Positions 25,974 to 56,178 of a stretch of 64,000 nucleotides of DNA are shown here, piece after piece. This stretch comes from Micromonospora acroterricola (GTDB lineage Bacteria; Actinomycetota; Actinomycetes; Mycobacteriales; Micromonosporaceae), in contig NZ_QGKR01000186.1 in the NCBI RefSeq assembly GCF_003172955.1, positions 1 to 64,000 on the forward strand. The letters run 5' to 3'. Both the position numbers and the translations under genes were made by a program. Numbering within the stretch: the first letter of the stretch is position 1; every line of letters begins with the position of its first letter. The notes below the pieces were generated by a model. It ran no database searches, was not told where the DNA came from, and saw only the letters and a list, made by a program, of their open reading frames with translations.

Positions 25974-27445
25974 GTACCGGACCGGACGCCCGGTCCATGG
26001 CCGAGATCCTGGCCACCAGGATCAGGAGCGACCGTGAGGATCAGCTGGAGGAAATGATCCAGCGGCTGACCGAGCTGGACGCGGCCGACGACCTCGCCCA
26101 GCTCGACGAGAACACCCGCGGCTGGCGGCAGAGCGAGTGGAGCGCCCGGCACGCCAACCCGGTCGACGGGCTGATGGCGGAGCTGATCGCCGAGGTGATG
26201 GCCGCCATGGCCGACCTGACCGACCGACCCGAGCGGCTCGCCCGGGTCTTCGTGGTCACCCTCAAACAGGAGAGTGTGGCGGCTCGCCTGCGGCAGCTGG
26301 CCGACAGCTCCGCGCTCGTCTACTTCTCCGACGCGACGTTCACCCTCTGCGGGCTCTACGCCGGCTGCGCGGCCGAGGGCCTGACCGGCCTCTATTCGGG
26401 AGGCCGCCTGCGCGACCTGTGGCGGGTGGCGCGGTCGGTCCGCGATCACCAGCGGTTGGGAGCCGACCCGGCCCTGCTCGGCGGTCTGCTGCGGTACTAC
26501 CTGGTCAACCAGCGGATTCACGCACTCGCGGCCAAGCTGAGTCACCGCCTGACGTCATCGGCCGAGCCGCTCGGCGTCTGGCTCACCGCCCAGGCCGTGA
26601 CGTTCGTGCTGGGTCACGAGATCGCCCACCACGTGCTCGACCACCGTCCCGCCACCAGCGACTCCCCGCCCGCCGACGACCTGTCCGCGTGCCCGCTGAG
26701 CGAGCAGCAGGAGTTTGAAGCGGATCTGCTCGGCTACCGGGCGGCCGTCCACGTCGGCCGGCGCGACGCCGCCCGGATACCGGCCGGCACCGGCATCGAC
26801 CTTCCCGAGACCGGTGCCGCGCTGGGCGCGCTGATCGGGATGCTGGCGATCCACGTGACCGAACAGGGATTGTTCATCCGGCGCGGGCGCAGCCACCCGC
26901 CCGCTCCGGCCCGGGCCGCCCGGCTCCTGAACGAGTTCAGCGACCCGGTCCGCCGATTCGCCGAGCCGTTCCAGGCCGACCTGCTGCGAGCCACCCGTGA
27001 CGCCGCCGACTTCTCGGCCTCAGGCCGTCCGTTCGACCTGGCCTGGTTTCACGCACAGCCGCAGGTCAGCACGCCGCTGCCGCTGCAGAACCTACAGACC
27101 GTCTCGATCCTGGACCGGTTCCAGTGCCGTACCCGGGAGGATCATGCCGCGGTGCTCGTCGGCATCGACGAGATCTCCCCGTTCTCGCTGGCCGCCGGCG
27201 CCTGCGCGGGCCTGGCCGGTGATGCCCGGGCCGCCCTGCTCGGCTGGGGTGTGCCGGATGCCACGGCCGAGGAGATCTGTGCCCCGCACCGGGCGCTGGA
27301 GTTCTCCACGCTGGTCGCCAAGTTGCGGGCGGCGTTCGCGGCTCGGGGCGTACCCGAGAAGGCCCTGCTCGCGGGCAGTCTGGCCGGTGCCCAACTGCTA
27401 GCCCCGCTGTTGAGCCGAGGTGAGCACCCACCCGCCGAGATCTGA
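25970..27445 (+). CDS. Zinc metallopeptidase with M48-like HExxH and EFEAD motifs
   Basis: The 491-residue product carries HEIAHH at residues 216-221 (HExxH zinc site) and QEFEADLLGYRA near 247-258. The Glu of EFEAD is placed as the third zinc ligand of M48-type peptidases. Unlike classical HtpX/Ste24 enzymes it has no clear transmembrane helices, so it probably acts in the cytoplasm. The N-terminal 150 residues are helical with no known domain, and the C-terminal 150 (LQNLQTVSILDRFQCR) are also unassigned. It is the last and best-preserved gene of a three-gene set, and an IS701-family element is inserted about 95 bp after its stop. Confidence 0.8.
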   Translation: MSTGPDARSMAEILATRIRSDREDQLEEMIQRLTELDAADDLAQLDENTRGWRQSEWSARHANPVDGLMAELIAEVMAAMADLTDRPERLARVFVVTLKQESVAARLRQLADSSALVYFSDATFTLCGLYAGCAAEGLTGLYSGGRLRDLWRVARSVRDHQRLGADPALLGGLLRYYLVNQRIHALAAKLSHRLTSSAEPLGVWLTAQAVTFVLGHEIAHHVLDHRPATSDSPPADDLSACPLSEQQEFEADLLGYRAAVHVGRRDAARIPAGTGIDLPETGAALGALIGMLAIHVTEQGLFIRRGRSHPPAPARAARLLNEFSDPVRRFAEPFQADLLRATRDAADFSASGRPFDLAWFHAQPQVSTPLPLQNLQTVSILDRFQCRTREDHAAVLVGIDEISPFSLAAGACAGLAGDARAALLGWGVPDATAEEICAPHRALEFSTLVAKLRAAFAARGVPEKALLAGSLAGAQLLAPLLSRGEHPPAEI

Positions 27446-32053: not shown

Positions 32054-32638
32054 GTGGTGCCGGTGAGTCTGATCCAGGCGGGTGTCACCGCGGCGACAAC
32101 GATGCTGGCGGTCCTGATCGGCGGGTGGCTCACCGTCCGGGCCCAGGACCGGCTGTGGCGGCGCGACCAGGATCGACAGTGGCGTGACATCCGGCTGAAC
32201 GCGTACACCGACTTCATCGGCGCGGTCCGGGAGTACGTGGCCTTCGTCCTCAACCCGGCCGCCCGCATCACCGCGGTGCCGCGCACGCGTGACCCTGGTG
32301 ATCTCATGCCGTTCTTCGACGATGAGGGCACCCGCTACCGGGAGCGGCTGGAGAGCACCAAGACCGCGCTTCGGCTGGTGGCCGGGCAGGTCGAGGTGGT
32401 GAGCGGCTCGTCGGAGCTGGTGCGCCAGGCCCGGCTGTTGGCGGCCGCGCGCGCGGGTAGCGGCATCGAGGCGTTGCCCGCTGATCGGTTCGACGCCTTG
32501 TGGCAGGCCGAGCGCCGATTCATCGATGTGGCCCGGGCCGAACTCGGTCTGCCCTCCGCGTTCGCGCCAGGGCCGGTAAGCACCCAGTTGCCGCCCGACA
32601 CCGAACATTTCATCGGCTTTCGTCGAAGGACCGGATGA
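32054..32638 (+). CDS. Membrane-anchored protein, unknown function
   Basis: The 194-residue product has one N-terminal transmembrane helix (AGVTAATTMLAVLIGGWLTV). A charged stalk follows (DRLWRRDQDRQWRDIRLNAY), then a helical cytoplasmic domain (TDFIGAVREYVAFVL, ALWQAERRFIDVARAELG). Its layout is close to that of the gene at 48624-49145: a helix, an Arg/Trp-rich stalk and a Tyr-x-x-hydrophobic helix. Its 3' end overlaps the convergent nucleotidyltransferase gene by 29 bp. Function is unknown; proteins of this shape are common in actinobacteria. Confidence 0.7.
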   Translation: MVPVSLIQAGVTAATTMLAVLIGGWLTVRAQDRLWRRDQDRQWRDIRLNAYTDFIGAVREYVAFVLNPAARITAVPRTRDPGDLMPFFDDEGTRYRERLESTKTALRLVAGQVEVVSGSSELVRQARLLAAARAGSGIEALPADRFDALWQAERRFIDVARAELGLPSAFAPGPVSTQLPPDTEHFIGFRRRTG

Positions 32639-33767
32639 TGTGCGGAGCGAAGACCTCCCGGCGGACGTGGGTGAAGCTGGGCCGGAGCAGGGCGTGCGGG
32701 GAGCGGGCACGCTCGACCAGATAGCGGTCCCGGAACTTGCGCTCGAAAGCGCGCAGCCGTGGGCGGCAACCTCGCTCGTCCCAGCGCAGGTCCAACAGGG
32801 GTAGCAGGATCGTCTGCAGAAAGCCCGGGCAGTAGCAGTCTGCGTCGTCGAACTGGCAGGCGGTGGTCGATCGCAGCCAGCCCGAGGATGCCTTCGTCAG
32901 GTCCGCGAGGACCGGAAGCTCGCGTCCGGCGAAGGTGCGCGGCAGGTCGCGACGGGCGGTCCTGGTGTCACGGTAGTCGCGGACCGTTCGCACCCCGCCT
33001 GCCGTGCTCCGCTCCAGTGCGGGGCTCGACTCCACCAGGGCGTAGCCGAGGACCCGGTCGGTGATCAGGTGCAGGCTGAGTGGATAGTCACCGGGAAGCC
33101 CTGCTCCGACGAGCATCGTGTCGTCCTGGTCGGTCCACAGCCGGATCTTGTGGCTCAGGATGGTGCGGCCGTCGTCGTACCGGTCGCGGAACAGCCCGGC
33201 CCGGGTCCGCAGCAGTTCGACCGAGGCAGGGGCGGCGCCTGGGAGGCGGCCCAGCCGGTCCGCGACCACGGCGGCGGCCGCCGCCGTCTCGATCACGATG
33301 ACGACGTCCAGGTCCGAGGTCGAGCGCACGTTGTAGAAAGGTCCGTAACTTGTGGATCCGCAGAGTATGCCCGAGGTCCCCGTACCGGCGAGCGCGTCCT
33401 CGAGCCGCCACACGTCGCGCAGGCGGCGGGCGGTCTCGACCACGGCTTCGAACAGCGCGGGCAGCGGCTGTCCCGGCGTGGCCCGGCCGGGGCCGTAATG
33501 CCGGCGGAACAAGCCGACGTCGAACACCTCGTCCCGGGAGATTTCGGCGATCACCGCGAGCACGTACGCGACGAAGCGGTCCTCCCGTCCACGGAAGTCA
33601 CCCATCAGACCGGTCAGGCACTCGGCCAGGGCGTCGCGGAGTTCGGCGGGCAGGAACGGCAGGTGCCTCGCCTGTTCGATCAGGGCGCGTAGCCGGCTCA
33701 GGTCGGTAATCGCGTATGCGGGCGCCAAGATCTCGCCGACGCTGTCGAGCTGCTGTGGTTTACCCAC
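32610..33767 (-). CDS. Nucleotidyltransferase-fold protein, divergent partner of a STAND NTPase
   Basis: The 385-residue product has a helical N-terminal domain (about 1-115, then DVWRLEDALAGTG). Then comes the minimal nucleotidyltransferase motif, LCGSTSYGPFYN followed by STSDLDVVIVIE: Gly-Ser plus an Asp-x-Asp pair that binds metal. The rest (SHKIRLWTDQDD, DYRDTRTARRDL, SFTHVRREVFAPH) is unassigned. The fold is used by toxins such as MNT/MenT types, by antibiotic-modifying enzymes and by cyclic-nucleotide synthases; the sequence does not say which. It starts 168 bp from a divergent large STAND NTPase, which suggests a functional pair. Confidence 0.72.
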   Translation of the reverse strand: MGKPQQLDSVGEILAPAYAITDLSRLRALIEQARHLPFLPAELRDALAECLTGLMGDFRGREDRFVAYVLAVIAEISRDEVFDVGLFRRHYGPGRATPGQPLPALFEAVVETARRLRDVWRLEDALAGTGTSGILCGSTSYGPFYNVRSTSDLDVVIVIETAAAAAVVADRLGRLPGAAPASVELLRTRAGLFRDRYDDGRTILSHKIRLWTDQDDTMLVGAGLPGDYPLSLHLITDRVLGYALVESSPALERSTAGGVRTVRDYRDTRTARRDLPRTFAGRELPVLADLTKASSGWLRSTTACQFDDADCYCPGFLQTILLPLLDLRWDERGCRPRLRAFERKFRDRYLVERARSPHALLRPSFTHVRREVFAPHIIRSFDESR

Positions 33768-33900
33768 CTCGGCCTCCTCGTCCCGGGTTCGACGAGAGCA
33801 GGCTCGGACCGCCGCAGGCCGTCTCGCATACCGGCGAGACGCCCGAATCGGCGTCTTCGCCCGTCAGCGGCCGTGGCGATAGCATCCGAGGGCGAGACGT

Positions 33901-33927
33901 CACGAGACGCACGAGACGCACGAGACG
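33901..33927. repeat. Three perfect 9-bp tandem repeats before the STAND gene
   Basis: CACGAGACG is repeated three times without gaps, ending 7 bases before the ATG at 33935. The last repeat merges into the GAGG (33927-33930) that is the likely ribosome-binding site. Repeat number could change the leader or promoter spacing of the STAND gene. Confidence 0.85.
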
Positions 33928-33934
33928 AGGCGAC

Positions 33935-36900
33935 ATGACGGGCCTTGACCCGGTGCGCGAAGCCGTCCATCACTTCCTCCGCCACTGGGAGCCGCGCAGC
34001 GCGGCATCGCTGATGGCGAAGGCGGAGCTGCACCTCGACCGGCTCGGGATCCCCGGCGGACGTAGCGCGAAGGCGCTCAGCGCCTGGAAGGCAGGCCGCC
34101 AGCGACCCCTGCCGGAAACCCTGCTCGTGCTGCGAGATGTCGTCGGTTGCAAGTGCAGAGACGAGTACAGCGCGTTCCCGCTGTACGGCGAGGCGACGTT
34201 GACGGCCATGCTTACGACGAGCCGGAGCGTCGACGCCGACCTGACGGCGGCCGATCTCGCGGCAGTCGACCGGGTGGTGGCGCTCAGCTCGGCGGCCGCC
34301 GAGGATTGCGACGTCGTGGCCGACGGGTTCCGGCTGAGCGACGTCTACGTGCGGCGCGACGTGGAGCAGACGATCGTCGAGTTGATCCGGCCCCGGTCGT
34401 TGATCGCCCTGCGCGGTGAGGCTGGTTATGGCAAGACCGCGCTGATGTGGCACCTCCATCAACGGCTCGGCGAGGCCGGCCGGCTGGCCCTGCTGATTCC
34501 CGCCACGGCACTGCTGCGAGGTGCGCGCGGCGATCGGGACGCCGGTGCCGTCTCCGTGAGCGAACTGTGGACCGCGCTGCGGGCAATGGTCCGGCATCGG
34601 CGGGACCCGGTGCTGCTTGTCGACACCATTGATCTGCTGACCCACAGCGAGGAAACTCGGGTCGAGGTGAGGCGGCTGATGCGCACCGCGGTCGAGTGCC
34701 GGGTGCCCATGGTGGTGGCATGCCGGCCCGCCGAGGCGGCCCTGCTGCACCTGGATCAGGACGGCGACGAGTCGTACGGCGTACCGATCCGTCCGATGTA
34801 CCTCAGCGCGTTCAACGAGCGGGAACGTCGGGAGGCGATCGAGTCGTACGCCTGGGCCGCCTACCCCGACGACGGCGACGCGGTGATCGCCGTCGTGCAG
34901 GACGCCCAGGTCCGCGGCCGTCCCCTGCGGGAGGTGGTGGCGAACCCGCTGACCCTGCGCATGCTCTTCGAACTGCACGCCGGCGACGGTGAGCGCCCGG
35001 ACAGTGACGTCGACAGCATCGGCCTCTACAACCTGACATGGCAGCGCAGGGTGGTGACCGACCGGCGTGACCGGGCGACCCCGGGCGGCGGCCCCGACCT
35101 GAGCCGGGACGTCGAGCAGACCGCCCTCGCCATGCTGAGTGCCGGCCGGATCGCTCTGCGGCGCAGTGAACTCACCGCCTGGTTGGACGGCATCCGCCCG
35201 GTCGACGAGGCGCTCGCCCTGCTGGTCGGCCGCGCACTTGTCACCCAGCGCAGGGAGTCGCCCTGGCTGTGGTTCTGGCATCAGACCTGGTTCGAGTACA
35301 CCGCGGCCCGAGCCATCGCCCGGCGGGGCGAGAGGACGGCGGCGATGCTGGGCCGGTTTGTCGCCGAGGAGCCGTACGACCTGTTCTACGGCGAGGTCGC
35401 CAGCCAGTTGGTGCTGCTCGCCGGACGCACGCCGCTTGTGGAACGGGACACGGCGGAGCGGCTGCTCGCTGCCTGGCTCGTCGACGATAGCCCCGGGCTA
35501 CCGGCGCTCGCCCTGCGCACGTACGCCCGCTTCCGGGAGCCGTCGGCGGAACTGCGAGCGCACGCCGCAGGGGCATTGCGTGCGGCCGACGACCGGGTGA
35601 CCAAGGACTTCCTGCGCCTACTACCATCGGTCAGCCATCCCGACGCCGAGCGATGGTCCTCCGACCTCGCGGTCGCCTGGGAACGGGTCAAGGCACGCCT
35701 CGTCGTGCTCGACGCGTTGACCCGGATGGCGGCCGCGGATCCCTGGGCGGCCCGGCGTTTCGTCATCGAGCACGGGTGCGTCGACTGGTTGCTCAGCCGG
35801 CCGGTGAAGCAGTGGCGCGATCATGACGGCCCGCACCTCCGCCTGCTTTCCGCGGTCGCCGGGGTGGACCCTCGGTGGGCCGCCGAGCAGGCGATGCGGT
35901 TCTGGCAGCCGCTCGCCGCCGAGGGGATCGTGGGCGGGCTGGCGGACATCGTAGCCTTCGTGGCCCGCCACGACCCGGCCGGTGGCACGCCGGGCGAGGA
36001 GCATCGCCGCACGATCGCGGCGGCGCTGCTCACGACGCCGAGCGACGAGTCCACGGCGGAGTTGCAGGTCGCGTACGCCGACCTGGTGACGGCGGCCGAT
36101 GATCTGCCGGCCGATCCGGAGGCGGCGCTGCACGACACGTTGCGCGACGATACCGGCGGGGAGACGTGGCGCCGAGCCTGTCTGCGTGTGGTCGGCCGCG
36201 CGGCGCTCACCCTGCCCGAGCCGGACGCCTTCCTGGCGACGCTGCTCGACACCGGGAATCCGGCCGAGGCGAGCCACCGCGCGACGGTGCTCGCCGAACT
36301 GTTGCGCGGGCGCCGTGGGACCGTCGCCGAGCCGCCGATCACCCGGCTAGTACGGGTGGCGAGCCGATTGACGCTCGGGTCGGGAGAGGCGGATGCCGCC
36401 CGGGTCGACCTCTTCGTCACCGCGATCCGCTACGCCAGGCTGGACGGGGCTGAACTTGCCCGGATCGTGCCGGACGTCGACGCGGACCCCCGGGCCTGGT
36501 TCGGCCAGTTGCACCCGTTGCTGGTGGAGGTGGCCGCGACCGGCGGGGGCGGCGCGGAGGCTGCCCTGCGATGGGCGATCACCGATGAGGCAGCGGAGTA
36601 CGTCTCCGCCAGGCAGTTGCGCGATCTCGGCTCCCGCCTGCGTGACCGAGTCGAGAATGCGCCGCGGCTGCTGACGTACCTGGTCGGCATCGCGCAGGGG
36701 CGACAGGCAACCCGGCGTCGCTCGCGTTCGCCCTTGACCGGATACCCGCGGACGTGTCGGCCGACCAGGCCGGCGTGCTCGACGACGTCCGGGCGCTGCG
36801 GGACGAGCTGGTGGCGCAGCGTGAGCCGCGTCGGACCGCCCAGGGGTACGTGCTGTGGCGGGCCCTGGTTCGCAACGGCTTGGACGTCCCGCCCGAGCCT

Positions 36901-37620
36901 GACCGGCTCGCCAGTCTCCTGTCCGCCCGGGCTGCCCCGCTCCACCGGGCGCTGTTGGGCCTGGCGATGGAGGCCGTGGAGCGGGACGCCTGGCCGGAGC
37001 AGGACGTGTCCAGCCTGCTCGCGGCGCTGTCCCGATACCTCGACGGCAATGACCGGCAAGCCCGTCAGATCCTCGTGGGACTGCTGTCGCGGACGGCTTC
37101 GTTGTCGCCCGATCCGGCTGAGCGGGCGGATCACGCGTCTCGGGCCGTCGAGTACGTCTTCTCGGCCGGCTACGACGTACGAACCAAGGAGGGCCTGCAC
37201 GATTTCACCCCGTGCGTGACGTTGCTCGGCAGGCTTGTCGACCGCCTGCTCCTGGTCGACCAGCGGCACGCCGCGCAGGTGCTGATCACCATCGTTGACC
37301 GGCTGCACGCCCTGCATCCCGAGCCGGCGCACTGGCGGCAGACGCTGGCGGTCAAGTGGCGTTACGCCGTGACCGCTCTGGTCGAGGCGCTGCCTGATGA
37401 TGATCGGCGTACGCTGGTCGAGCACCTGCTCCGTCGAGATCCGTACCTGGTCGCCGACGCTCTCCTGGCCTGTGTGACCCGGGAGCAGGTGGTGGCGCCG
37501 TGGATCCTCGGCCTCACCGAGGAGCTTCCCGACACCGCTCGTGGCCGGCTGCGGTCCAAGCTCTTCGAAGCGGCCAGGGAGAGGAGCACGCGCAGGTTTC
37601 CAGTGCCCGTCGCCGGCTGA
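33935..37620 (+). pseudogene. Large STAND (NACHT-like) NTPase with a one-base frameshift near 36700
   Basis: From the ATG at 33935 the product has a helical HTH-like start (about 1-95, SAKALSAWKAGRQRPLPE). A P-loop follows (GEAGYGKT, residues 161-168), then Walker B (VLLVDTID, 226-233) and a NACHT-type winged-helix region (LWFWHQTWFEYTAARAIARR). The rest is a long helical sensor. At 36697-36700 a run of four G breaks the frame; with one more G the protein reads IAQGATGNPASLAFALDRIP and continues to 37620, about 1229 residues. The downstream part alone (from GTG 36754) has no domain of its own. STAND proteins of this build detect invaders and trigger an effector, here perhaps the divergent nucleotidyltransferase. 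The break may be a sequencing error. Confidence 0.78.
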
Positions 37621-40616: not shown

Positions 40617-43600
40617 ATGTCGAGCAGAGAGGCGTCGGACGGGCGCTCGGTGGCGACGGCGTTCACCACGGGCGGTGGCGGCTTCAATTTCGAAGACCAT
40701 GTTGGTGCGTGGCTCGCCGCTGGGATGGCCGCTGGCGAGATGCCGCTGGGCGTCGGGGTCGCGGTCCCGATGGAGGTGCGGTTCCAGGCCAGTGCATCGG
40801 GGTTCTTCCTCGATGACATGGTCGTCACCGGTGACGCGGCCGGTGGGCCGCGGTGGTCGGCATCGGTGAAGTCGTTCGACATGCTGACCGGAGCCAGGCT
40901 GCACACGGAGTTCGTGGAGGCCGCCTGGCGCGACATCCTCGCCGACAGCTTCCGAGCCGCAGCGGACCGGGTCGGCCTGGTGTCAGGGTCAGCGGCGCAA
41001 GGCACCTGGGTCGAGCTCGCGGAGCTGATCGGAGAGGCCGCCGCTGACCAGGCTGGGATCGCCTCGCGGATGGGCGTGCCTGGCGCGTTCAACGAGGCGA
41101 AGCGCTCGCTGTGGGAATCGGCGAAGTGCCCGACTGAGCTCGCCGAGCAGCACGGGATCAACGTGGACTCCTCTCCCGCCCGGCTGCTGGCCTTGCTTCT
41201 GCCTCTGCGTCTGGACTTCCTCATCCCTACTTCCCAGGCGATCGCGGACGCAATTCGGTGGTGCCGCGCCGCGCTCGTGCCGCAGCAGGCCGGGAGGGTT
41301 GCGGACCTGTGGACGGCGCTGCTCGAGGTGGTCGCCGACCTGCGGCCCAAAGGCGGGGCAGTCACCTGGCAGCTCTTGGCTGACCGGTTGGGCGGGCATT
41401 TTGCGTTCCAGCTGCGCCCGGATGTCGCCCCTGACTGGAGGCTTCTCACCGCGCACACAACCAACATGACGGCCCGGGTTCGGGACCGGCTAGGCGACGA
41501 CGTGATCCTGGTTCGTGAGGACGTGACCGCCGTGCTCGCCGACGCCGGGGCGGTCAACATGCTGTCCGGGCCGTCGGGCTGCGGCAAGACCGTGGCCGCC
41601 AAGAGGTGGCTGACCGCCCCGGGCGCGCACCGGGCGGTTTGGCTGTCGGCCGTGGACCTCGAGGCCGGCGTCGGCGCGCGACTCGGGCTGACCCGGGGCT
41701 TGGAGGAAGTCCTGACGCTTGCCCCCGGAGAGGTCCGCGTCGTCGTCGACGGCCTCGACCGGGTCTACTCCGACGAGCCGTTCGCCGCGACGGCCGCCCT
41801 GGCACGCCTCGCGGCCGCCCCGGGCGACCGGATCCGGTTGTTGATCACTTCTCAGCAGTCGGAGTTTCCCCGAGTGTCGGAGCGCTTGGTGCAGGCTAAC
41901 GGCCCGCAGGCCGCCCCGCTCGTGATGGGGGACCTGTCTGACGCCGACGTCAATCTGGTGTTGCGCGGGCACCCGGACCTGGCCGCGGTGGTCGTCGCTG
42001 GTGGGCTCCGTGGTGTCGTGCGGCGCCCGAAGGTCCTCGACCTGGTGCTGCGGATGCCCGGGGCTACGGTTGCCGCTATCCGTGACGAGCCGTCGATCGC
42101 TGGTTTGTGGTGGCAGCGGTTGGCCGGGGCGGGCCCGAACGGCGCCGCCCGCCAGACGTTGCTGCGGCGGATCGCCGTCGAGCAGGCCGACCGTCTGCGG
42201 GCTCAGACTGCGCTGGACGATCTCCCGGTCGACGCCGTTGGGCTCGTCGACCAGCTGCGCGTCGACGGGATCCTCTCCGAGGTTGACGGACGGGTCTCTT
42301 TCGCTCATGACCTGTTCGACGACTGGACGCTGTTGCAGTACCTGCGCTCCCGTGACGACGTCATCGGCGTGGTCGCGGAGAAGGCCGCGCTGCCGTCGTG
42401 GCACCGAGCGATTAGCCTGTACGCCGCCGGCGTGCTCCGCGAGCAGGGTGTCGACCGGTGGGAGGCCGATCGGTTTGCGCTGGACGCCGCCGACCAGCCG
42501 CTCGTGGCGGACTTGTACCTCGACGCGGTGTTCTACGCCCACGACGCCGACCGGCTTCTGGGCGAGCTGTGGTCGCGCCTCGCCGCCGACAGCGCTCTGC
42601 TGGCACGGCTGCTGCGCAGGTTCAGGTTCTCCGCGACCGTGCCGGACTCCGGTTGGATCACTGTGCTCGCCGACGAGCCAGACCTAGCGGTGTACGCCGC
42701 CGCCCAGTCGCGGCTGCCGGTATGGCCGCTGTGGCTGCCGGTCCTACGCGTCCTGGCGGCGGAGCATGAGACCGCAGTCGCCTCGGCCGCCCCGGAGGTC
42801 GCCGCGATCGCCGACCTGTGGCTGCGGCACGCCCCCGACACGTGGCCGGCCCGCAATCAGGCTGCCGTGATCGGCCTGGCGGTCGGACGGCACATCGTTG
42901 CGCACATCGACGGTGGAGGCTTTTTCGACGACACGGTCGAGGCGGTGCTGTGGCGGTGCGTCATCGCCGCCGGGGCGGTCGAACCCGACGCCGTCGCCAG
43001 CTTCCTCGATACGCTGCTGCCCCCTGTTGACAGCCGGCTTGAGCACAGCGGCCAGGTCATTGGCCGCCAGCGTCGCGGCCAGACGAGACTCCGTGCAGCC
43101 TTGCTGGACGTCGACACCGTGATGCCGTTGCTGCCGGCGTCCGCGCAGATGGCCCGGGACCTGGTGCTGCGGGCAGCCTTCGGCTCCGACCGCCATCACT
43201 CCCACCACCGGCTGCGTGACGCCCTCGGCATCACCAGCGCCCCGCGCTCCTTCGATCCGATCCCCGAATGCGGTCCGTTCCGGGCGATGCTCGTCAACGC
43301 CGAACCGCAGGGCGTCGACGTGGTGCTCGCCCTCGTCGAGCACGCGACTACCCATTGGAGTCGCACCCGTAACGCCCCGGTTTCAGACGGCCAGGGACCC
43401 ACGCAGGAGCGGCCGGCGTTCGAGCTGCTGATCGACGGCGCGCCTGTCGCGCTGGTCGGTGACGCCGCCGTCCTGGCCTGGAGCCACGGTGGCCACCATG
43501 TGCCGGACATCCTGGCGGCGGCGATGATGGCCCTGGAGGCCCACCTCTACCAGGCCCTCGACGCCGGCCGCGACATCACAACGCTCCTCGTCCAGCTCAC

Positions 43601-45722
43601 CGGCAGCCGATCGGTCGCGACGTGGGGGCTGCTCGCCGACATCGCCCGCCACACTCCTGCACTGCTAGAAGGCCCGCTCGCGCCTCTGGTCACCAGCGCC
43701 GACCTGCTCGACCACGACCGGATGAGTGTGCAGATGCGCTCCTTCAATGTGCTCCCGCTCGTCATGGATCCCACCCGAGCTGAGCGAGCCCGCAAGTGGC
43801 ACACCATGGACCACCGCAAAATCCCGCTCCTGGACCTGGTGCACCTGGGCGCATTCGTCACCGGCCGGCTCACCGAGCAGCTCACTACCGCCCGAGCGCA
43901 CTGGGCCGCGACAGACGCACACCGGTGGCGGGTGATGCTCGCTGCGACCGACATTGCGAACTACCACGCCGTCCGCGCCACGGACGGAAGGACCTACCTC
44001 GTGTACAACCCGCCGGCGGCCCTTGAGGAAGAAGCCCGCGAGGTGCGGGACCACCTCGACCGCGATCGCGCCTGGCTAATGTTCGCCTACACCATGCGCC
44101 GCAACATCACCGACCATGTCCGTCCCAGCGACACCGAGCTCGAGGAGCAATGGGCCACCGTCCAGCCCCAACTCGACGCTCTCGTCCCGGGTGCTGACTC
44201 GCCGAGCTCCATCAGCGGTGTGGAGGACCTGCGGTGCGCGTATGCGGCGTGGCTGGTGCTGTGCGCCCGCGACTGGCTGCGGAACCACCCCAACCGCGAT
44301 GAATGGTGCCGGGCCGTGCTACTGCGCCCCCTCATTCACCCGACCGCCACGCTGTCGCACGCAGACCCCGACAGCTCCTCCGATCACGACTGGGACGTCT
44401 TTTGCCCGGAAGCGCTCACCGCCCTGTGGGCCGAGACCCCCGACGACGTCACCGTTCGCGCGGCCATCGCACGGCTGCTGCTCGGTGCCCGCCGCCTCAC
44501 CGTCACCACCGTGATGCGCCTCGCCGCCGCACACCCCCACCTCACCGACGACCTGCGCCGGCTCGAGCACCTGACGCTGCACTGCGCGCGGCTGTCGATG
44601 TCGCACTACGGCATCGACCCATACTTTGAAGAAGCCGACCTCGACTTCGACCTCGACACCGACCCGGAGGAAGCCGCTGGACTCGACGTGGACCAAGAGG
44701 ACGACGAGCCCGGCCACGGCCCGATCGACGGCCTCCCGGAGCTAAAGGCGGCCGCCGAGGCCGCACTCGACGCCTTCGCCGACGGCAGCCTGCCCGCCGA
44801 GGTGCCTCGGCTGGCGGACTGGATGGCCACCACCCTCGCAACCAGATTCCCCGACGGCCGCGACGCCCGCTCCCGCATACTGCGCAGCCTCGACCTCGGC
44901 TACCTCGTCGCCTCCCGCCCGCACTTCACAGCCCTTACTGCTGCGGCGGATACACGCACACGAGCACCGGCGGTCGAGTTCGCCGCCGACCTCGCGACGC
45001 TCCTCGCCTCCGGGCTGACCTCTACCGAGGCCGCCAATCGATCCGCCCACTACCCGTACGACGAGGAACGTCGCGCTATTGGGCTTCTCGCCGCCGTCAC
45101 GATCAGCGCCGACGCCGCAGAGGCCCGTACGGTCTGGGAGCCGATCCTGACCCTCGGGGCCACCGCCTCCTCCTGGGTGGCCAATTACCTCAGCCAAGTC
45201 TGGAAAACCGCCTGCGCGAAGGCCTCTTGGCCAGCAGCGTTCCCCGCCCTGGTCGCAGACATGCTCGGCTTCGCCACCACCGCCAGCACCTGGCAGGGCT
45301 ACTCCGGCAGGGGCGTCCTGGCGCTCGCCGTCGCCGGTCTCAGCGAGTGGGGGCACTCGCCGGTCAGCGAGCAGCAGACAGCCGCCATCCGCGCGGCCGT
45401 GCCGGCGTGGTCGACGTGGTTCGGCGATCATATGGGCCACGACGACTTCGCCTACGCGGCCGTTCGCTTCTTCCGGGAGCCGGCTGCGGCAGGGTTTGTC
45501 CACGACGCCGTCGGCTGGCTCGCCGATCGCGAACGTTCCTCTCACCCCACCAGCGAGCGGTTGGACATCGCGGTCACCGAGTTCCTGGTTACCATCTCCA
45601 CTCGCAGCCCGAACCCGCTGCGCGGCTCCGGCCCCACCGCAGACAACGGACGGCAGGTCCTCGCCCGCCTCCACGGTCGAGGCAACGCCGTGGCCGGCCA
45701 ACTCCTCAACAGCCTGACTTGA
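40617..45722 (+). CDS. PD-(D/E)xK-like nuclease fused to a STAND NTPase and long helical sensor (Avs-like)
   Basis: The 1701-residue product opens with GGGGFNFEDHVGAWLAA (Glu26), then SGFFLDDMVV (Asp66/67) and WSASVKSFD (Lys85). This is the pattern of a Cap4/Mrr-type PD-(D/E)xK nuclease. A P-loop (GPSGCGKT, 318-325) and Walker B (VRVVVDGLD, 373-381) follow. SEVDGRVSFAHDLFDDWTLL is the winged-helix end of a STAND module. About 1100 residues of helical repeats make up the sensor. Nuclease-STAND fusions of this size resemble Avs phage sensors, which bind conserved phage proteins, assemble and cut DNA. The closest named type cannot be fixed from sequence alone. The gene is intact, has its own terminator, and lies divergent from an HTH regulator. 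Confidence 0.82.
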   Translation: MSSREASDGRSVATAFTTGGGGFNFEDHVGAWLAAGMAAGEMPLGVGVAVPMEVRFQASASGFFLDDMVVTGDAAGGPRWSASVKSFDMLTGARLHTEFVEAAWRDILADSFRAAADRVGLVSGSAAQGTWVELAELIGEAAADQAGIASRMGVPGAFNEAKRSLWESAKCPTELAEQHGINVDSSPARLLALLLPLRLDFLIPTSQAIADAIRWCRAALVPQQAGRVADLWTALLEVVADLRPKGGAVTWQLLADRLGGHFAFQLRPDVAPDWRLLTAHTTNMTARVRDRLGDDVILVREDVTAVLADAGAVNMLSGPSGCGKTVAAKRWLTAPGAHRAVWLSAVDLEAGVGARLGLTRGLEEVLTLAPGEVRVVVDGLDRVYSDEPFAATAALARLAAAPGDRIRLLITSQQSEFPRVSERLVQANGPQAAPLVMGDLSDADVNLVLRGHPDLAAVVVAGGLRGVVRRPKVLDLVLRMPGATVAAIRDEPSIAGLWWQRLAGAGPNGAARQTLLRRIAVEQADRLRAQTALDDLPVDAVGLVDQLRVDGILSEVDGRVSFAHDLFDDWTLLQYLRSRDDVIGVVAEKAALPSWHRAISLYAAGVLREQGVDRWEADRFALDAADQPLVADLYLDAVFYAHDADRLLGELWSRLAADSALLARLLRRFRFSATVPDSGWITVLADEPDLAVYAAAQSRLPVWPLWLPVLRVLAAEHETAVASAAPEVAAIADLWLRHAPDTWPARNQAAVIGLAVGRHIVAHIDGGGFFDDTVEAVLWRCVIAAGAVEPDAVASFLDTLLPPVDSRLEHSGQVIGRQRRGQTRLRAALLDVDTVMPLLPASAQMARDLVLRAAFGSDRHHSHHRLRDALGITSAPRSFDPIPECGPFRAMLVNAEPQGVDVVLALVEHATTHWSRTRNAPVSDGQGPTQERPAFELLIDGAPVALVGDAAVLAWSHGGHHVPDILAAAMMALEAHLYQALDAGRDITTLLVQLTGSRSVATWGLLADIARHTPALLEGPLAPLVTSADLLDHDRMSVQMRSFNVLPLVMDPTRAERARKWHTMDHRKIPLLDLVHLGAFVTGRLTEQLTTARAHWAATDAHRWRVMLAATDIANYHAVRATDGRTYLVYNPPAALEEEAREVRDHLDRDRAWLMFAYTMRRNITDHVRPSDTELEEQWATVQPQLDALVPGADSPSSISGVEDLRCAYAAWLVLCARDWLRNHPNRDEWCRAVLLRPLIHPTATLSHADPDSSSDHDWDVFCPEALTALWAETPDDVTVRAAIARLLLGARRLTVTTVMRLAAAHPHLTDDLRRLEHLTLHCARLSMSHYGIDPYFEEADLDFDLDTDPEEAAGLDVDQEDDEPGHGPIDGLPELKAAAEAALDAFADGSLPAEVPRLADWMATTLATRFPDGRDARSRILRSLDLGYLVASRPHFTALTAAADTRTRAPAVEFAADLATLLASGLTSTEAANRSAHYPYDEERRAIGLLAAVTISADAAEARTVWEPILTLGATASSWVANYLSQVWKTACAKASWPAAFPALVADMLGFATTASTWQGYSGRGVLALAVAGLSEWGHSPVSEQQTAAIRAAVPAWSTWFGDHMGHDDFAYAAVRFFREPAAAGFVHDAVGWLADRERSSHPTSERLDIAVTEFLVTISTRSPNPLRGSGPTADNGRQVLARLHGRGNAVAGQLLNSLT

Positions 45723-49556: not shown

Positions 49557-50825
49557 TCATGCGCCACTATGCTCGAACGCTCGTAGAGTGGCATCAAGGG
49601 TGGGTAAAACCTGTTCGTACAGCGTCTCTTGTTCGCAGCAGTCGCCGGTCTCAGCGATTGCAACGGCCAGCTCACGCAATAGAGCCGGGCCTCTTGTCGA
49701 AAAGTTTGCCGCAACATCTCGCGCCCACGCGAGTTGCTGATCGGTCTGTATTAGCTTCGTCCCAGTTCGCCACAGGGCAAGCGACATACCAACTGGGGTC
49801 ACTGAGCGACCAATACCTTTCTCCAGGTTGGCCATCATCCGTATCCCGTAGGCGTCCAGGTCGCACCATGCGGCGACCATGAGATTGAGGTCGGCCAGGA
49901 ACCTCATAAGTCGCTTGCGCGGGTTTCCCTGGTTCCACACACATAGCCACCGCTCGGTGACCCCATCCAATAGGCATACCTTTTCGAAGGCCTCCACGTT
50001 CTCGACGACAAGGATTCCTTTGGCGTCGCATTCGATGTATCCAAGCGTACGGATTCCTTGCGCGGGGAGACCGATCCATGGTCGTGCGGTAGCCGCGTGA
50101 GCGATCGTGTCTTGGAACTTCCAGACGAGAGGTCCACTCATTTTTATCGGGACGTCAGCCTCGTCCACTGCCTGGTCGAATGGCCGCTGCACGAGGTTGG
50201 CGAATGCGACGCGGCGCTGGTCGGTCCACTTCTTTGTGTCTCGGAATGCCAGGCCGGCCAGTTGTCTGGCTGCCATGCGTCGTCCGTCGTTGTGGGCTCT
50301 CCACCAGATGCAGGCCGCACGTATTGCCGGCTCGTACACTTGCCATGACCTCGTGATTGCCGCCGTGTCGTCAGGTGGATGTTGCACAGGACCGACCGGA
50401 CTTTTTGCGAGCAGCGCCCGTTCGTCGGCCATTTGCGGAACGCCGTCCATGATGTCGAGCAGTTCCTGCCAGACCTGCTGGTTGCCAGCGGTGCGAGTGG
50501 TAAGTTGGACCTGCTTTTGCAGGAGCTGTTCTCCGGTGAGCGCAACGATGACGTCAGGTAGGCCGAGCTGGGCGGGTCCGGCTCGCAGGATCTGGTCAAG
50601 CTTTCCCAGGTCGACCTGGGTGTTCTTGCCGATGTGGCCGGTGAGTCGTCGGCCGAGGATCGCCCCTAGCTCGGAGGCGGTGCGGTGATCGGGTATCGGA
50701 ATCCTCACGGTCCCGCGGGGCTGCGCGTCGGTGCGCTCGAGCTGCTTGCGTATCCTCTGCCACAAGAGTGCGAGTTCGGGCCGATCGAGTGCATGCCGAA
50801 CGGCTTCCGGCAGCGGGGGCGTCAC
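49557..50825 (-). CDS. jetD: Wadjet JetD, toprim-type nuclease subunit (TIGR02679)
   Basis: The 422-residue product is the last gene of the Wadjet operon. The C-terminal toprim-like domain shows ILVVENVEAFEKV (Glu275) and AWCDLDAYGIRMMANLE (Asp322, Asp324), the acidic residues expected to bind metal. The N-terminal part (RIPIPDHRTASELGAILGRR, then LTGEQLLQ) is the arm domain. In Wadjet, JetD cuts DNA after the JetABC complex has reeled in a circular plasmid. Its ATG overlaps the jetC stop by 4 bp. The reading frame is complete. Confidence 0.85.
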   Translation of the reverse strand: MTPPLPEAVRHALDRPELALLWQRIRKQLERTDAQPRGTVRIPIPDHRTASELGAILGRRLTGHIGKNTQVDLGKLDQILRAGPAQLGLPDVIVALTGEQLLQKQVQLTTRTAGNQQVWQELLDIMDGVPQMADERALLAKSPVGPVQHPPDDTAAITRSWQVYEPAIRAACIWWRAHNDGRRMAARQLAGLAFRDTKKWTDQRRVAFANLVQRPFDQAVDEADVPIKMSGPLVWKFQDTIAHAATARPWIGLPAQGIRTLGYIECDAKGILVVENVEAFEKVCLLDGVTERWLCVWNQGNPRKRLMRFLADLNLMVAAWCDLDAYGIRMMANLEKGIGRSVTPVGMSLALWRTGTKLIQTDQQLAWARDVAANFSTRGPALLRELAVAIAETGDCCEQETLYEQVLPTLDATLRAFEHSGA

Positions 50826-53800
50826 GGCTGCTGACGCGCGGCGGTCGCGCCATCCCAGGTGGTGTGGACGAAGGCGATGCCAGGCGCGCCCTTGGGCCTG
50901 AAGACGTCGTAGATGTGCATGCGACTGATTTTCGGTGAGAAGGCGGAGCCGCCGGGCCAGGTGATAATCCAGTCCATATCGAGTTCTTCGGCGAGGAGTT
51001 CGAGCAGCCGGGTGATCGTGGGGTCGTCTAGTCTCTCGAATGCCTCGTCGAGGAGAACCAGGCGTAATGGTCGTGTGCCTGGTGTGCTCAGGGCGTCATA
51101 GAAGGCCGCCGCTGCTGCAAATAGGGTCATATAGGACACCAGCCGGGTTTCGCCTGAGGAGAGTTGCCGCAGCCTGCGGTTGCGCGACCGGCCGTCCGGG
51201 CCGAAGTCTTGCACGCGTACCGTGAAGGTGTACCAGCTTCGGTAGTCCAGGGCATGTGCAAGCACCTGGGCGTAGTGCACATCACGCTTGTCCCGTTCGG
51301 CTTCGATGCGGTCCTGAAGCGCCTTGCGGAGCGTGTTGTCCTGGTCCTCGTTTCGGACCGCAAGTGACTTGCCGACCAGTTCCAATGCTTGACGTGTGGC
51401 GTCATCCAGGGCGGGCGAGGGAGCCCAGCTGAGCTGGACGTGAACGCCCTGGCTCGACTGGGCGCCGGCCAGGATGGTGTTCATCCGGCGACAGAGGTCG
51501 TCGGCGGCGTCGATGTGACGGCGTAGGTGCTCGGCGAGGTCACGCAACAGGAATCGTTCAAAGATCTTCTGATAGCGGTCGTCGAGCTTCTGCTGGTCCT
51601 CGTGCAACCGCTCGTGTGTGTGGCGGGCGGCATCGGCAACCGGGCGATGCTGCTCACCGTCGCTCACGTGCACGATCAGCGGAGCGACCTCGGCGTCGAC
51701 ATGGGCTTCGTGGCCGTTCGGCAGGGCGGCCTGCAGGCGCTGCAACGAGTTGACGAGGTGGCCTTCGTTGACGGCTGTTGTGGCGTATGTGTGCACGACG
51801 CGCAGCGCGTCTTCCCGCGACGCAGGCGGCGGATCAGATTCCCCCGTTGCGGCCAGCCAGACGCCGGGCGCTCTGGCTACCTGGTCGAAGTCTTTCTCAG
51901 CTGCCGTGACTGCCTCCTGCTTCTCCTGCTCGGCTGTCTGGTCCAACCCGATGAGTGTCTCGAGTGTCACAATCTGGCGATCCGCACGTTGTCGGTCGTT
52001 CCGCTGAAGGGGCAGATCAGCCTGGGCCTTCTGAAGCTTGGTGGCAAGTCCGGTCAGAGTCCGTTCGAGCTGATCGCCCGCGACGCCCAGGTTCTCCGCG
52101 AGTATCTGAAGCGCCTTGGCGGCCTCGGCGTACGTGCCATGTGCCGCGCCTGCCTGTTGCTCTGCTTCCGCCCGACTCGCTGCCGCCTCGTCGAATTTGG
52201 CAGTGGCTCCAGCGATGTCAACGATGGCGAGCTGCAACTGACCGAGAGCGCCGCGCAGTCGTTTACACGCCTCGATGGCGCGGCCGATCGCGATGCACCT
52301 GGCCCCGAGTGCGCCTGTATCGCTGGGCAGGTTGGACTCCGCCGCGTTTCGGCTCAGCACGGCCCGATCGGCCTGCCAGCGGGCGAATGCCTCCGCATGG
52401 ACTTTAATCTTCGCCTTGGTCTGCTCCTCTGCTGTATCGCGTATGTCCTCGGCCATTCGACTTTCGGCGTGTGCCGTGACGAGCGTGACCGGCTCGGGAA
52501 AGTGTTCGGCTTGGCGTTCCCATGTCGCAACCGCTGCGGCGAGGTCGTCGCTCCGAACCTGTTCGGCTGCGAGCTCGCGAGTGACCTCAGCGTGTTGCGC
52601 GGAGATTCCGGCGATCATCCGCTGGCGGGTGGCTTCGCGGGTACTGGGGCCGACGTACTCAGCGCACGGCTTGTGCCAGGCGCCTGTCAGGTTCCCGGCT
52701 CGCCAGCGACCGCTCGTGGATACCGCCACACCCATTTGGTCCGTTGTGGCCTGACCGTCGTCGAGCAGGACTGCGGCCAGCAACCTGTCGACAACGTCGA
52801 TGGGGACCTGGCACTGGGCTGGCGGAGTCGCGACAAGCGCCGATGCGAGCCTGTTCGGCAGATGGCCGGCCGGGTGGGGGCCGGTCAGCGCCACCGCGAC
52901 CAGATCATTAAGGTCGGGGTCGCTGAGGCCGCCGTCGGGGTTTACCCAAGCGTCGAGCAATCCACTCGCTTGGAGCGCACCTTCTAGGCCGCCGCGCTCG
53001 TCTTCTGATAGCGCTGCGCGGAAGTCGACGAGTTGGTAGAACGGCGCCCCCGGCCGGCGTGCCCGGCTGGCACGAGGGTGCTCCGGGTGCGGCGGCAGAA
53101 CGTCACCGCCGGCCCGCAGCGCTTGTAGTTCGGTGTCGAGGCGACCCTGTTCGGCCTCCAGGCTCGCGTATTGCGCCCGGGCATCGCTCGCGTCGTGCCG
53201 AGCTTGAACGACGGCCGGCGCGATCCAGGCGAGGTGCAGCATGCGTGCGCCGCGGGTTACCGTAACCGGCTCGTCGATGAGCTCGGCCGTAGTGGGAGCA
53301 GCCGGCCGGCCGGCCAATGCCGCCGCGGTTAAAGGGCAACTGTCCGCCCAGGCAGCAAGCCCCGTCAGCCAGGCGACGGCTTCAGCTGTGAGCGTGCGAA
53401 GGCGCTGTTCGTGACGCTCGGATGCCTCTCTGGCTGCGTCCGCAGCCCCCTCTGCCGTCGCCTTAAGTTTGTCGATCTCGCCTAGCTCTCCGTCGAGCCG
53501 CTCCGCTGTCTGCAGTAGCGAGGCGGCGACGACACTCCGACGTTCGGCGACGACGCGGGCACGCTCGGCCTGGGCGAGTGCTTCCACGACGGCGTTGCGC
53601 AGTGCATCGAGATCGAACGCTGGAGGTGCCGAGCGCTGCACAGGCTGGGGTACGCCATCGGGCTCCGCGGTGATTTGGACGTACTCCCTGCTGGTTACTG
53701 TGCTGGGCCGGGGTACCGAGGGCACGGTTGGAATGACAGATCGATCAGATCCTACGTCAGCAAACAGATCGGCCGCGGCGTGGGCTTCTTCGGCAGCCTG

Positions 53801-54979
53801 GGCGCCTGCACGTTGAGCCGCATTAAGGACGTCGAGGACGGTCGAACAGGCGCGCTCCTCTGAGCTGCGATGAACCGCGGCATTGGACAAACTGATGCTG
53901 GCGTTACGTTTTAAGGCGGCGACCATTGCGCGTTTGTCCGCTAGGTCACGGTGGTCCTTGTATTCGTCGCTGCCCTTGAGCTCATCGATCTGTGCCTTCA
54001 GCTCCCGTTCGGCACGTTCCAACTCATCGATGTTGCGTTGCGCCTCGCCGGCCTTGCCTCGCTGAATGCCGAGTTCGTCTTGACGTTGTGACGCCGCTGT
54101 CCGATGGGCATCAAGGGCTTCCTGTGCCTGGGTGACGTTTGTGGCTCGCTCGCGCAGCGCTGACTGCAGATAGTCACGGTAGTCGACCAGGAAGCGCGAT
54201 AGGGATTCGTCCGCTTGTCCAAGACGTTCGATGTTCTCCCGGATGGCCTCAAGGTCCTGGAACTGGTTAGCGAGTCTGTTGAGGATTTCCGGCTCCAGCG
54301 GCGGCAGCGCTTCACCAAGGTACTCCTCGAGTTGCCCGGCTACCGCCTTGACCCCGACGTCGGGGTTGCGCAGCGTACGTTGCAGGTGGAGGAGGTCGTC
54401 GTAGCGCTGCAGGTCGTCGATGCCGTAGACGGCGGCAGCCACCCGGGACCGGAACAAATCTGGATCGGTGACCACCGCTTGGGCGCCGATAACGTCCTTC
54501 AGTTCCCCGATGTCCAGCGGCCTGTTCTCGGCGGTGGCAAGCCGAAAGTCGATGCCGACCCGAGCTTCGGTAATAAACCGCCACGAGTTGGCAATGTCGT
54601 CGGTCGCCTTCGATGCCTTGATCCCGATTCCGCAACTGAGGAACTCTTCGGCACCGTCATCGCGAACTCGGCGCAGTTCCATCCAGCTGTAGCCGATACG
54701 GTTGGGGCCCCCGTTGTAATGATCGAGCATCAGCCGCCGCACGCTCACGGAGTCGTAGCCTTTTGCGCCCAGATTTCGCAGGTCGCCGTCCAGGCAGAAC
54801 GGCAGCGCAAGTTCCAGGGTTCGCGACTTGCCGGATCCATTGCTGCCCTGCAGGACCGCCCGTCCGCCCGACAGGTCAAATTCGCGGGCGCCGTACTCCC
54901 AGATATTGAGAATGCCGCCACGATGCAACCGCCACCGAGAGGGCGGCTGAACGCCGTCTAGGCCCATTGGGAGGTTCAC
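50822..54979 (-). CDS. jetC: Wadjet JetC, SMC-like ATPase (TIGR02680)
   Basis: The 1385-residue product has Walker A at residues 45-52 (GSNGSGKS). About 900 residues of coiled coil follow (IQRGKAGEAQRNIDELERAE, ELKAQIDELKGSDE). The C-terminal head has signature LSSGE (about 1273) and Walker B LRLVLLDEAFERLDD (about 1305-1320). This is the MukB/SbcC-like motor that extrudes DNA loops in Wadjet. It overlaps jetB by ATGA and jetD by ATGA, so all are translated together. No break is seen. Confidence 0.92.
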   Translation of the reverse strand: MNLPMGLDGVQPPSRWRLHRGGILNIWEYGAREFDLSGGRAVLQGSNGSGKSRTLELALPFCLDGDLRNLGAKGYDSVSVRRLMLDHYNGGPNRIGYSWMELRRVRDDGAEEFLSCGIGIKASKATDDIANSWRFITEARVGIDFRLATAENRPLDIGELKDVIGAQAVVTDPDLFRSRVAAAVYGIDDLQRYDDLLHLQRTLRNPDVGVKAVAGQLEEYLGEALPPLEPEILNRLANQFQDLEAIRENIERLGQADESLSRFLVDYRDYLQSALRERATNVTQAQEALDAHRTAASQRQDELGIQRGKAGEAQRNIDELERAERELKAQIDELKGSDEYKDHRDLADKRAMVAALKRNASISLSNAAVHRSSEERACSTVLDVLNAAQRAGAQAAEEAHAAADLFADVGSDRSVIPTVPSVPRPSTVTSREYVQITAEPDGVPQPVQRSAPPAFDLDALRNAVVEALAQAERARVVAERRSVVAASLLQTAERLDGELGEIDKLKATAEGAADAAREASERHEQRLRTLTAEAVAWLTGLAAWADSCPLTAAALAGRPAAPTTAELIDEPVTVTRGARMLHLAWIAPAVVQARHDASDARAQYASLEAEQGRLDTELQALRAGGDVLPPHPEHPRASRARRPGAPFYQLVDFRAALSEDERGGLEGALQASGLLDAWVNPDGGLSDPDLNDLVAVALTGPHPAGHLPNRLASALVATPPAQCQVPIDVVDRLLAAVLLDDGQATTDQMGVAVSTSGRWRAGNLTGAWHKPCAEYVGPSTREATRQRMIAGISAQHAEVTRELAAEQVRSDDLAAAVATWERQAEHFPEPVTLVTAHAESRMAEDIRDTAEEQTKAKIKVHAEAFARWQADRAVLSRNAAESNLPSDTGALGARCIAIGRAIEACKRLRGALGQLQLAIVDIAGATAKFDEAAASRAEAEQQAGAAHGTYAEAAKALQILAENLGVAGDQLERTLTGLATKLQKAQADLPLQRNDRQRADRQIVTLETLIGLDQTAEQEKQEAVTAAEKDFDQVARAPGVWLAATGESDPPPASREDALRVVHTYATTAVNEGHLVNSLQRLQAALPNGHEAHVDAEVAPLIVHVSDGEQHRPVADAARHTHERLHEDQQKLDDRYQKIFERFLLRDLAEHLRRHIDAADDLCRRMNTILAGAQSSQGVHVQLSWAPSPALDDATRQALELVGKSLAVRNEDQDNTLRKALQDRIEAERDKRDVHYAQVLAHALDYRSWYTFTVRVQDFGPDGRSRNRRLRQLSSGETRLVSYMTLFAAAAAFYDALSTPGTRPLRLVLLDEAFERLDDPTITRLLELLAEELDMDWIITWPGGSAFSPKISRMHIYDVFRPKGAPGIAFVHTTWDGATAARQQP

Positions 54980-56178
54980 AATTCGGTCTCCTCGCCATCG
55001 AACAACGTGGCCTGCGGTTCGTGTTGATCCGGTGACGTCTCGGCGGTCGCCGCCCTCTCCTCAACATGTGGTTGCCATCGGTGAGCCGCTGGAACCAGCA
55101 GCAGGTCGTCGCCGACAAGCCGCGCCGCGCCGACGTCCAGCAGATGATCGGTGACTCTGCCTGCCAAGGTATCGACATTGCTCACGTCGCGTTTGGCCCA
55201 GGCGGACGGGTAGCGCGTAGCCAGTTCCTGACATAGTCGCGTGACATGATCTGGCGTGACCTGGTGACAGCCGTCGGCGCGTGGAGGCGAAGCGGCCATA
55301 AGCGGTTCCAGGATCAGCAGCGCGATGCGCGACACGGTCGAGCTCGCCGGAAACGCAAGATCGGTGAGGAACTCGTCAGGGTCGATGGCGACCATGCCTT
55401 CCGCCCGAGTTTCGACCTGCAGGCCGACGTAGCGTTCCAGCCAGTACGCCTCTTGCCGCTGATGGTCGCGTAGGTATCGCGCCTCGGCATCGGGGAGATC
55501 GACGTAGAGGACGACCGGGTCTTCGACCAATCGTCGGCGCGCAACAATACCCGCAGGTTGTCTTGGAGTCGTGCCGGATTCCCCGAATTCAAACGCTCTG
55601 CCGGCTCGCATCCGCGGCACGATAAGGCCAAGCAAATCGGTGTCAATGGTGATCAGCGCTTCCGCCGCGCCGCGCTGCTGCACTGCCGAAACACTGCCCT
55701 CGGTCTCCTCAAGGACTCCGAGGGACACCAGGTGGCGCAATGCCGAGGTCAGCGCCCGCAACTCCACCAAGTCGTCTCGCAAGGCGATCCCGGCCTCGGC
55801 CGCGGCACCGCGTATGTCGGCAATCAGCTGTGACAGCAGTATCTGCCGGCCCGTATCGACGAGTGCGGCCAGTGTCAACGCCAAGTACGCATAGGCGCGT
55901 GGGGTGAAGTTCGGCAGGCCGCGACCGGCACCGGCGTCCGCGCTCTTATACAGGCGGGCGAGTCGCCCTTCCACGGTCAGTCGATAGCCCAGATAGTTGG
56001 CAAACAGTCGCCGGAGTCGGTCCCGATGCCGGAAAACCAGCGGGAGCAACTCGGCTCCACGGCCGTTGATGTGCAAGATCGGGCGGCGTAGCAGCGTGCG
56101 CACGCAAACCCGCACCTGTGCAGCCTCGGGGTGAGGCAAGTCGTCGAGGAGATCTCCGTAGTATCCGCGCTCAACCAT
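54976..56178 (-). CDS. jetB: Wadjet JetB, DUF2398 subunit (TIGR02678)
   Basis: I start at the ATG at 56178 (MVERGYYGDLLDDLPHPEAA). The open frame reaches 56229 inside jetA, but that extension looks non-coding. The 400-residue product has the DUF2398 phrases AQVRVCVRTLLRRPILHING, RLARLYKSADAG, FTPRAYAYLALTLAALVDTG and ERYVGLQVETRAEGMVAIDP. It is the kite-like subunit that links the SMC heads in Wadjet. It overlaps the jetA end by 8 bp and the jetC start by 4 bp. Confidence 0.88.
   Translation of the reverse strand: MVERGYYGDLLDDLPHPEAAQVRVCVRTLLRRPILHINGRGAELLPLVFRHRDRLRRLFANYLGYRLTVEGRLARLYKSADAGAGRGLPNFTPRAYAYLALTLAALVDTGRQILLSQLIADIRGAAAEAGIALRDDLVELRALTSALRHLVSLGVLEETEGSVSAVQQRGAAEALITIDTDLLGLIVPRMRAGRAFEFGESGTTPRQPAGIVARRRLVEDPVVLYVDLPDAEARYLRDHQRQEAYWLERYVGLQVETRAEGMVAIDPDEFLTDLAFPASSTVSRIALLILEPLMAASPPRADGCHQVTPDHVTRLCQELATRYPSAWAKRDVSNVDTLAGRVTDHLLDVGAARLVGDDLLLVPAAHRWQPHVEERAATAETSPDQHEPQATLFDGEETEL

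Follow-up and report, generated by a model that had tools for sequence, protein, structure and literature searches.

What does a nucleotidyltransferase do beside a STAND NTPase that is transcribed away from it? The question is raised by a three-gene unit in a 64-kb stretch of Micromonospora acroterricola DNA (hereafter the window), carried by contig G000:C111 of a 6.5-Mb draft genome in 368 contigs. The unit, hereafter the cassette, consists of a small membrane protein (SM, + strand), the nucleotidyltransferase (NTase, - strand) and the STAND protein (+ strand). In STAND proteins generally, the NTPase domain acts as a switch and oligomerises. The original prediction held that the STAND, having an HTH-like N-terminus in place of a built-in effector, recruits the NTase for this role.

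A nucleotidyltransferase and a STAND NTPase diverge from a shared promoter region

The predicted arrangement, a GS...DxD nucleotidyltransferase beside a divergent STAND NTPase, is indeed present: the two starts are separated by a 167-bp gap, and the STAND gene is frameshifted (Table 1). The NTase and SM genes meet tail-to-tail, sharing 29 bp at their 3′ ends. A complete type II Wadjet set recognised by PADLOC models (JetA2 to JetD2, 49557-57742 (-)) lies 12 kb downstream of the cassette, and a serine recombinase and transposases are found nearby. This setting is a variable island, which is consistent with defence and is no proof of it; judging by the company of its genes only, the cassette is probably a conflict or defence module.

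Table 1. Positions of the cassette features within the window
Feature	Position	Strand	Remarks
SM	32054..32638	+	194 aa; one predicted N-terminal TM helix; convergent with NTase
NTase	32610..33767	-	385 aa; Pol-beta-type nucleotidyltransferase of a family without Pfam model
Divergent promoter region	33768..33934	none	six CGAGACG/CGTCTCG sites; candidate operator
XRE-type HTH head of STAND	33935..34231	+	approximately residues 1-99; predicted
STAND NTPase domain and first part of C-terminal region	34232..36685	+	first reading frame
Remaining STAND C-terminal region	36703..37620	+	other frame, after the frameshift

The nucleotidyltransferase belongs to a family unmatched by the profiles searched

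Residues G137, S138, D152 and D154 of the NTase are invariant in 26 aligned rows, yielding the GS motif followed by DxD, and the likewise invariant D264, located on a predicted strand, is a candidate for the third catalytic carboxylate. The window protein matched no Pfam family and no PDB sequence; nor did it match any PADLOC family at E ≤ 1, so that the PADLOC models do not recognise it as a CD-NTase. Its Foldseek list includes MenT1 (E 0.52) and MenT3 (E 2.0). Housekeeping or antibiotic-modifying enzymes as closest relatives had been named as the outcome that would speak against a defence role, and no profile that we tested linked the NTase to either. The nearest relative, from Micromonospora sp. 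NPDC048898, is 94% identical; collections of plasmids, phages and viral contigs contained no NTase match.

The divergent pair recurs in three genera

We detected the NTase in six of 300 genomes of the family at E ≤ 0.001, or five once G025 is dropped, its match (E 6.4e-4) covering residues 8-136 only, without the GS/DxD core; the STAND was also detected in five. Both are present in three of the 300: the own genome, Planosporangium mesophilum (G022, L011/L025) and G174 (L010). Each of these genomes carries the two genes side by side in divergent orientation, separated by 167, 292 and 107 bp, respectively; the NTases of the three genera are 42-43% identical to each other. With the own genome excluded, the NTase is found in four, the STAND in four and both in two of 299 genomes (p = 8e-4). 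Furthermore, NTase P0004 and STAND P0021, which have the same source, probably share one 5967-base metagenome contig. The pair is thus conserved as predicted. The converse concern, that homologues of the two rarely occur together, holds in part: against the three genomes with the pair stand the STAND relatives in G188 and G239, neither of which is among the NTase matches, and P0020, P0022, P0024, P0025 and P0027, for which no accompanying NTase was detected in the database matches. The NTase in turn occurs without this STAND in G260 and G224. Both genes are rare: the NTase is found in the own genome only among 394 genomes of the class, and the STAND in two of 160 genomes of the genus and, queried with P0027, in two of 67 genomes of the genus of G174.

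The STAND partner of the nucleotidyltransferase is exchangeable

A scan of genome contigs with a single NTase sequence found nothing; the alignment-based scan found 12 loci, six actinobacterial and six distant matches in metagenome-assembled genomes (MAGs), the latter being excluded from the locus counts. Nine actinobacterial NTase loci were compared: the window, L010, L025 (= L011), L022, L023 (= L009), L024, L026, L027 and L012. A clear STAND lies within two genes of the NTase in six of these, in three architectures: NTase loci are rich in STAND partners. A NACHT-like STAND of one family is present in the window, L010 and L025; a STAND with NB-ARC and WD40 repeats in L024 (Nocardia ninae) and L026 (Nonomuraea guangzhouensis); and in L027 (Nocardia sp. 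SYP-A9097) an AAA_16 protein (below the Pfam cut-off) precedes a TPR protein, a set that has a second, similar counterpart in L025. Counted loosely, eight of the nine loci qualify, with the addition of L022 (Lentzea indica), where an NB-ARC protein adjoins a MoxR-like ATPase, and L023 (Paractinoplanes rishiriensis), which has a LuxR-type AAA_16 regulator. L012 (G224) has no STAND beside its NTase. The STAND partner of the NTase is, therefore, exchangeable.

As a control we used ten SM loci, picked from strong matches after exclusion of three NTase-linked ones; when extended, none had an NTase, and one (L071) had an NB-ARC protein. Compared with this small and non-random control, the enrichment of STANDs at NTase loci is significant by Fisher's test (p = 0.02 for six of nine, p = 0.001 for eight of nine); at the control loci the scan covered eight of the ten listed proteins of at least 480 aa, and shorter STANDs would escape it. 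The simple gene caller made shadow-gene errors in L022 and L024 and missed the low-GC3 NTase of L012, and gene starts and some small genes are accordingly uncertain.

The small membrane protein is shared with many genomes that have no nucleotidyltransferase

In six of the nine actinobacterial loci (window, L010, L025, L022, L026 and L027), the SM and NTase genes converge and overlap at their ends. The seven SMs of NTase loci have one N-terminal hydrophobic segment (maximum 19-residue means 1.78-2.17) and no further such segment downstream. SM matched no Pfam family above the cut-off and no PADLOC model, except that the window copy gave one GajB line at chance level. In L024 the SM is located beyond the STAND and adjoins a fragment resembling an NTase C-terminus (5207-5380 (+)), the full NTase of this Nocardia ninae locus being separate, at 10001.

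SM-like genes were detected in 65 of the 300 family genomes, four of which have the NTase. Three solitary Micromonospora copies are 90-94% identical to the window SM, and two others 63-64%; the NTase-linked SMs are 50-86% identical to it, and their NTases 39-53% to the window NTase. From this spread and pattern of identities, SM has a life of its own and either came beside NTases repeatedly or was exchanged there. SM as a dedicated third component of the cassette is weakened by the same counts and by the ten NTase-free loci. In several Micromonospora (L064-L070), SM and some 50 bases upstream are kept at 86-93% DNA identity in differing neighbourhoods without an NTase; there SM is an orphan gene.

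The STAND has a predicted XRE-type head and faces a repeat-bearing promoter

The STAND has a Walker A motif at residue 161 and an acidic Walker B-like strand, the LLVDTxD residues of which are invariant in 13 rows. Its Pfam AAA_22 and NACHT matches are below the cut-off, and it matches the antiphage NACHT protein EruA weakly (NCBIfam; E 7.2e-5, 21.1 bits against a cut-off of 1000), falling short of the Avs4 threshold as well (NCBIfam; 7.8 bits against 1500). As judged by tblastn of P0020 and P0021 and by codon-position GC, the frame is broken in the assembly at approximately 36686-36703: P0020 follows the first frame up to 36685, and both relatives span the region as single proteins. The window copy may therefore be inactive.

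The HTH-like N-terminus noted originally is predicted, by structural modelling and VIA-align, to adopt an XRE-type DNA-binding fold, that of an XRE repressor. Residues H13, H17, S44, W51, P58, C72 and C74 are invariant in all ten aligned rows, two AAA_16 STANDs among them. A search with the head matched three of 300 genomes; we dropped the G224 match (E 9.8e-4), which looks like a common XRE regulator with phage-like neighbours. The link between head and NTase thus rests on two of 300 genomes with three copies, and the candidate role of the head as a domain confined to NTase loci was set aside with its support so reduced. In G239 a STAND relative without the HTH head (L019:2924-5590 (-)) lies near a TPR-CHAT protein; another effector type may replace the NTase there.

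The motif CGAGACG occurs six times, on either strand, in the 167-bp region (33820, 33835, 33893, 33903, 33912 and 33921), four of the sites being spaced 9-10 bp apart; none of 500 dinucleotide shuffles contained six copies of any 7-mer. A further 18 sites are scattered over the remainder of the window. The 107-bp region of L010 has four copies of a different sequence, GCTTCC (0 of 500 shuffles for 6-mers, 4 of 500 for 7-mers). The L026 region shows a marginal excess (18 and 35 of 500 shuffles), and L011, L025 and L027 show none (500 shuffles). Repeats are thus present in two of the six regions tested.

Distant nucleotidyltransferases have other neighbours

The G224 NTase (L012) is approximately 34-36% identical to the other NTases compared. 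The protein encoded upstream of it matches the PADLOC 2TM effector models (E 3.7e-8), which we take to be of CBASS origin, and is SLATT-like (Pfam SLATT_5 at E 0.015, below the cut-off); the downstream gene weakly resembles nucleoside deoxyribosyltransferases (E 8.7e-4, below the cut-off). At this single locus, the two neighbours make us lean towards a nucleotide-related function at the membrane, and the three genes (L012:8380-10948 (-)) perhaps form a separate small system.

More distant relatives, 18-22% identical to the window NTase, occur in MAGs of candidate phyla (L028, L029, L030 and L031). In L028 and L030 the gene adjoins one whose product looks like a TIM barrel; in L029 it is convergent with an RNase_T/DEDDh exonuclease gene, and in L031 with a similar-looking one.

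Transcriptional control, recruitment or neither?

Our preferred reading, the chance of which we put a little short of even, is a STAND-controlled NTase cassette: the head acts on the divergent promoter and the NTase is the effector. It starts from what the analysis shows, namely the layout, its recurrence, the NTase signature, the predicted HTH fold and the promoter repeats. The C-terminal part of the STAND would sense a trigger, perhaps a phage product; the NTPase domain would then switch and oligomerise, as established for other STANDs. The XRE head would bind the repeated sites in the 167-bp promoter and thereby change NTase expression and probably STAND expression too. The NTase, in turn, would transfer nucleotides to a cellular target or produce a nucleotide signal, acting with the membrane-anchored SM at loci that have one. 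The simplest role for a STAND with a predicted DNA-binding head, located beside a repeat-bearing promoter that it shares with one other gene, is control of the latter. Against this speak the four of six promoters without clear repeats, the NTase-free STAND relatives and the presence of the head in two of 300 genomes. If the reading is correct, different bacteria couple one and the same effector enzyme to several NLR-type sensors, all of which have an HTH-like head; prokaryotic NLR immunity is linked to transcriptional control, perhaps to nucleotide signalling; and an NTase family that had no Pfam, PADLOC or PDB-sequence match in our searches acquires a role.

Direct recruitment, as originally proposed, is unlikely, though the least so of the alternatives: the head would serve as an adaptor for docking, and the STAND oligomer, once activated, would gather and switch on the NTase protein. 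The STAND relative P0029 carries PF08357, presumably SEFIR, and the head, with its invariant H and C residues, is common to two unrelated types of STAND found at NTase loci; by our reading, however, the heads of L010, L024 and L026 do not have these residues. The N-terminus is the position of the effector or output domain in bacterial NACHT proteins, according to the part of PMC12169576 available to us, and EADs are described in the accessible portion of PMC7159879 as adaptor domains connecting STANDs with effectors. Unlike in the EAD pattern, the NTase has, by our reading, no copy of the head, and the head itself resembles a DNA-binding XRE repressor. This resemblance and the six CGAGACG sites lead us to favour transcriptional control over recruitment: of the original claim, the partnership stands (the recurring pair, the STAND-rich loci), and control of transcription explains it at least as well as recruitment does.

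That the two form a regulator-enzyme pair outside defence, for example one that controls a modifying enzyme during stress or development, seems to us quite unlikely: HTH-STANDs also work as transcription regulators, and the stretches read around the distant NTase relatives of Patescibacteria contain no STAND, but the spread is rare and patchy, the recombinase and transposases lie nearby and the Wadjet set is 12 kb away. We are more doubtful still of a chance or decayed association, that is, of genes that recombination brought together in a variable island and that have no joint function in this strain. The frameshift, the wide occurrence of SM-like genes mostly apart from NTases, the closeness of the window SM to solitary copies and the NTase fragment beside the SM of L024 all fit such an origin; the same divergent layout in three genera whose NTases have diverged to 42-43% identity, and the tail-to-tail overlap of NTase and SM in six of nine loci, do not. 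Just as doubtful is a relay from an NLR to a nucleotide signal, in which the STAND activates a Pol-beta NTase of a new family and a membrane protein (SM, or the SLATT-like 2TM protein of G224) reads the messenger; if true, it would be a CBASS-like system in which NLRs of at least three architectures serve interchangeably as the sensor.

Relation to known systems

We found no description of the SM/NTase/STAND layout in those parts of the open-access literature that were available to us. Like bNACHT and Avs proteins, the cassette has a STAND NTPase whose output domain is N-terminal and whose C-terminal region is long; unlike them, its STAND has no nuclease head, and the NTase is encoded by a separate gene. 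With CBASS it shares a Pol-beta-type NTase accompanied by a membrane protein, and the G224 neighbour matches the 2TM models, but the cassette NTase and SM have no PADLOC match. MenT and other NTase toxins probably share the Pol-beta fold with the cassette NTase, MenT1 and MenT3 being in its Foldseek list; the cassette NTase, however, has no sequence match to them, and its partner is a STAND rather than a small antitoxin. MalT, the precedent for control of this kind, is, in the sections of PMC10427625 that we could consult, a STAND that oligomerises and binds repeated sites in its target promoter through a DNA-binding output domain; in the cassette such binding is proposed, and the XRE-type head is N-terminal whereas the DNA-binding domain of MalT is C-terminal. 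For TRADD-N systems, the available excerpt of PMC8195603 gives a Pol-beta NTase as the predicted effector and a STAND-TPR gene as possibly included; in those systems NTase and TRADD-N form a single fused protein, unlike the separate NTase of the cassette.

Other genes of the window

A 482-aa protein (25997-27445 (+)) matches Peptidase_M48 barely above the cut-off and, weakly, Lit among the PADLOC models. A 1701-aa protein (40617-45722 (+)) matches no Pfam family at E ≤ 0.01; its single PADLOC match, Cas3fv, is weak (E 5.2e-4). Beside the Wadjet set, a second, unrelated-looking protein with a nucleotidyltransferase domain is encoded at 58785-59645 (-) (NTP_transf_2, E 1.9e-5, above the cut-off).
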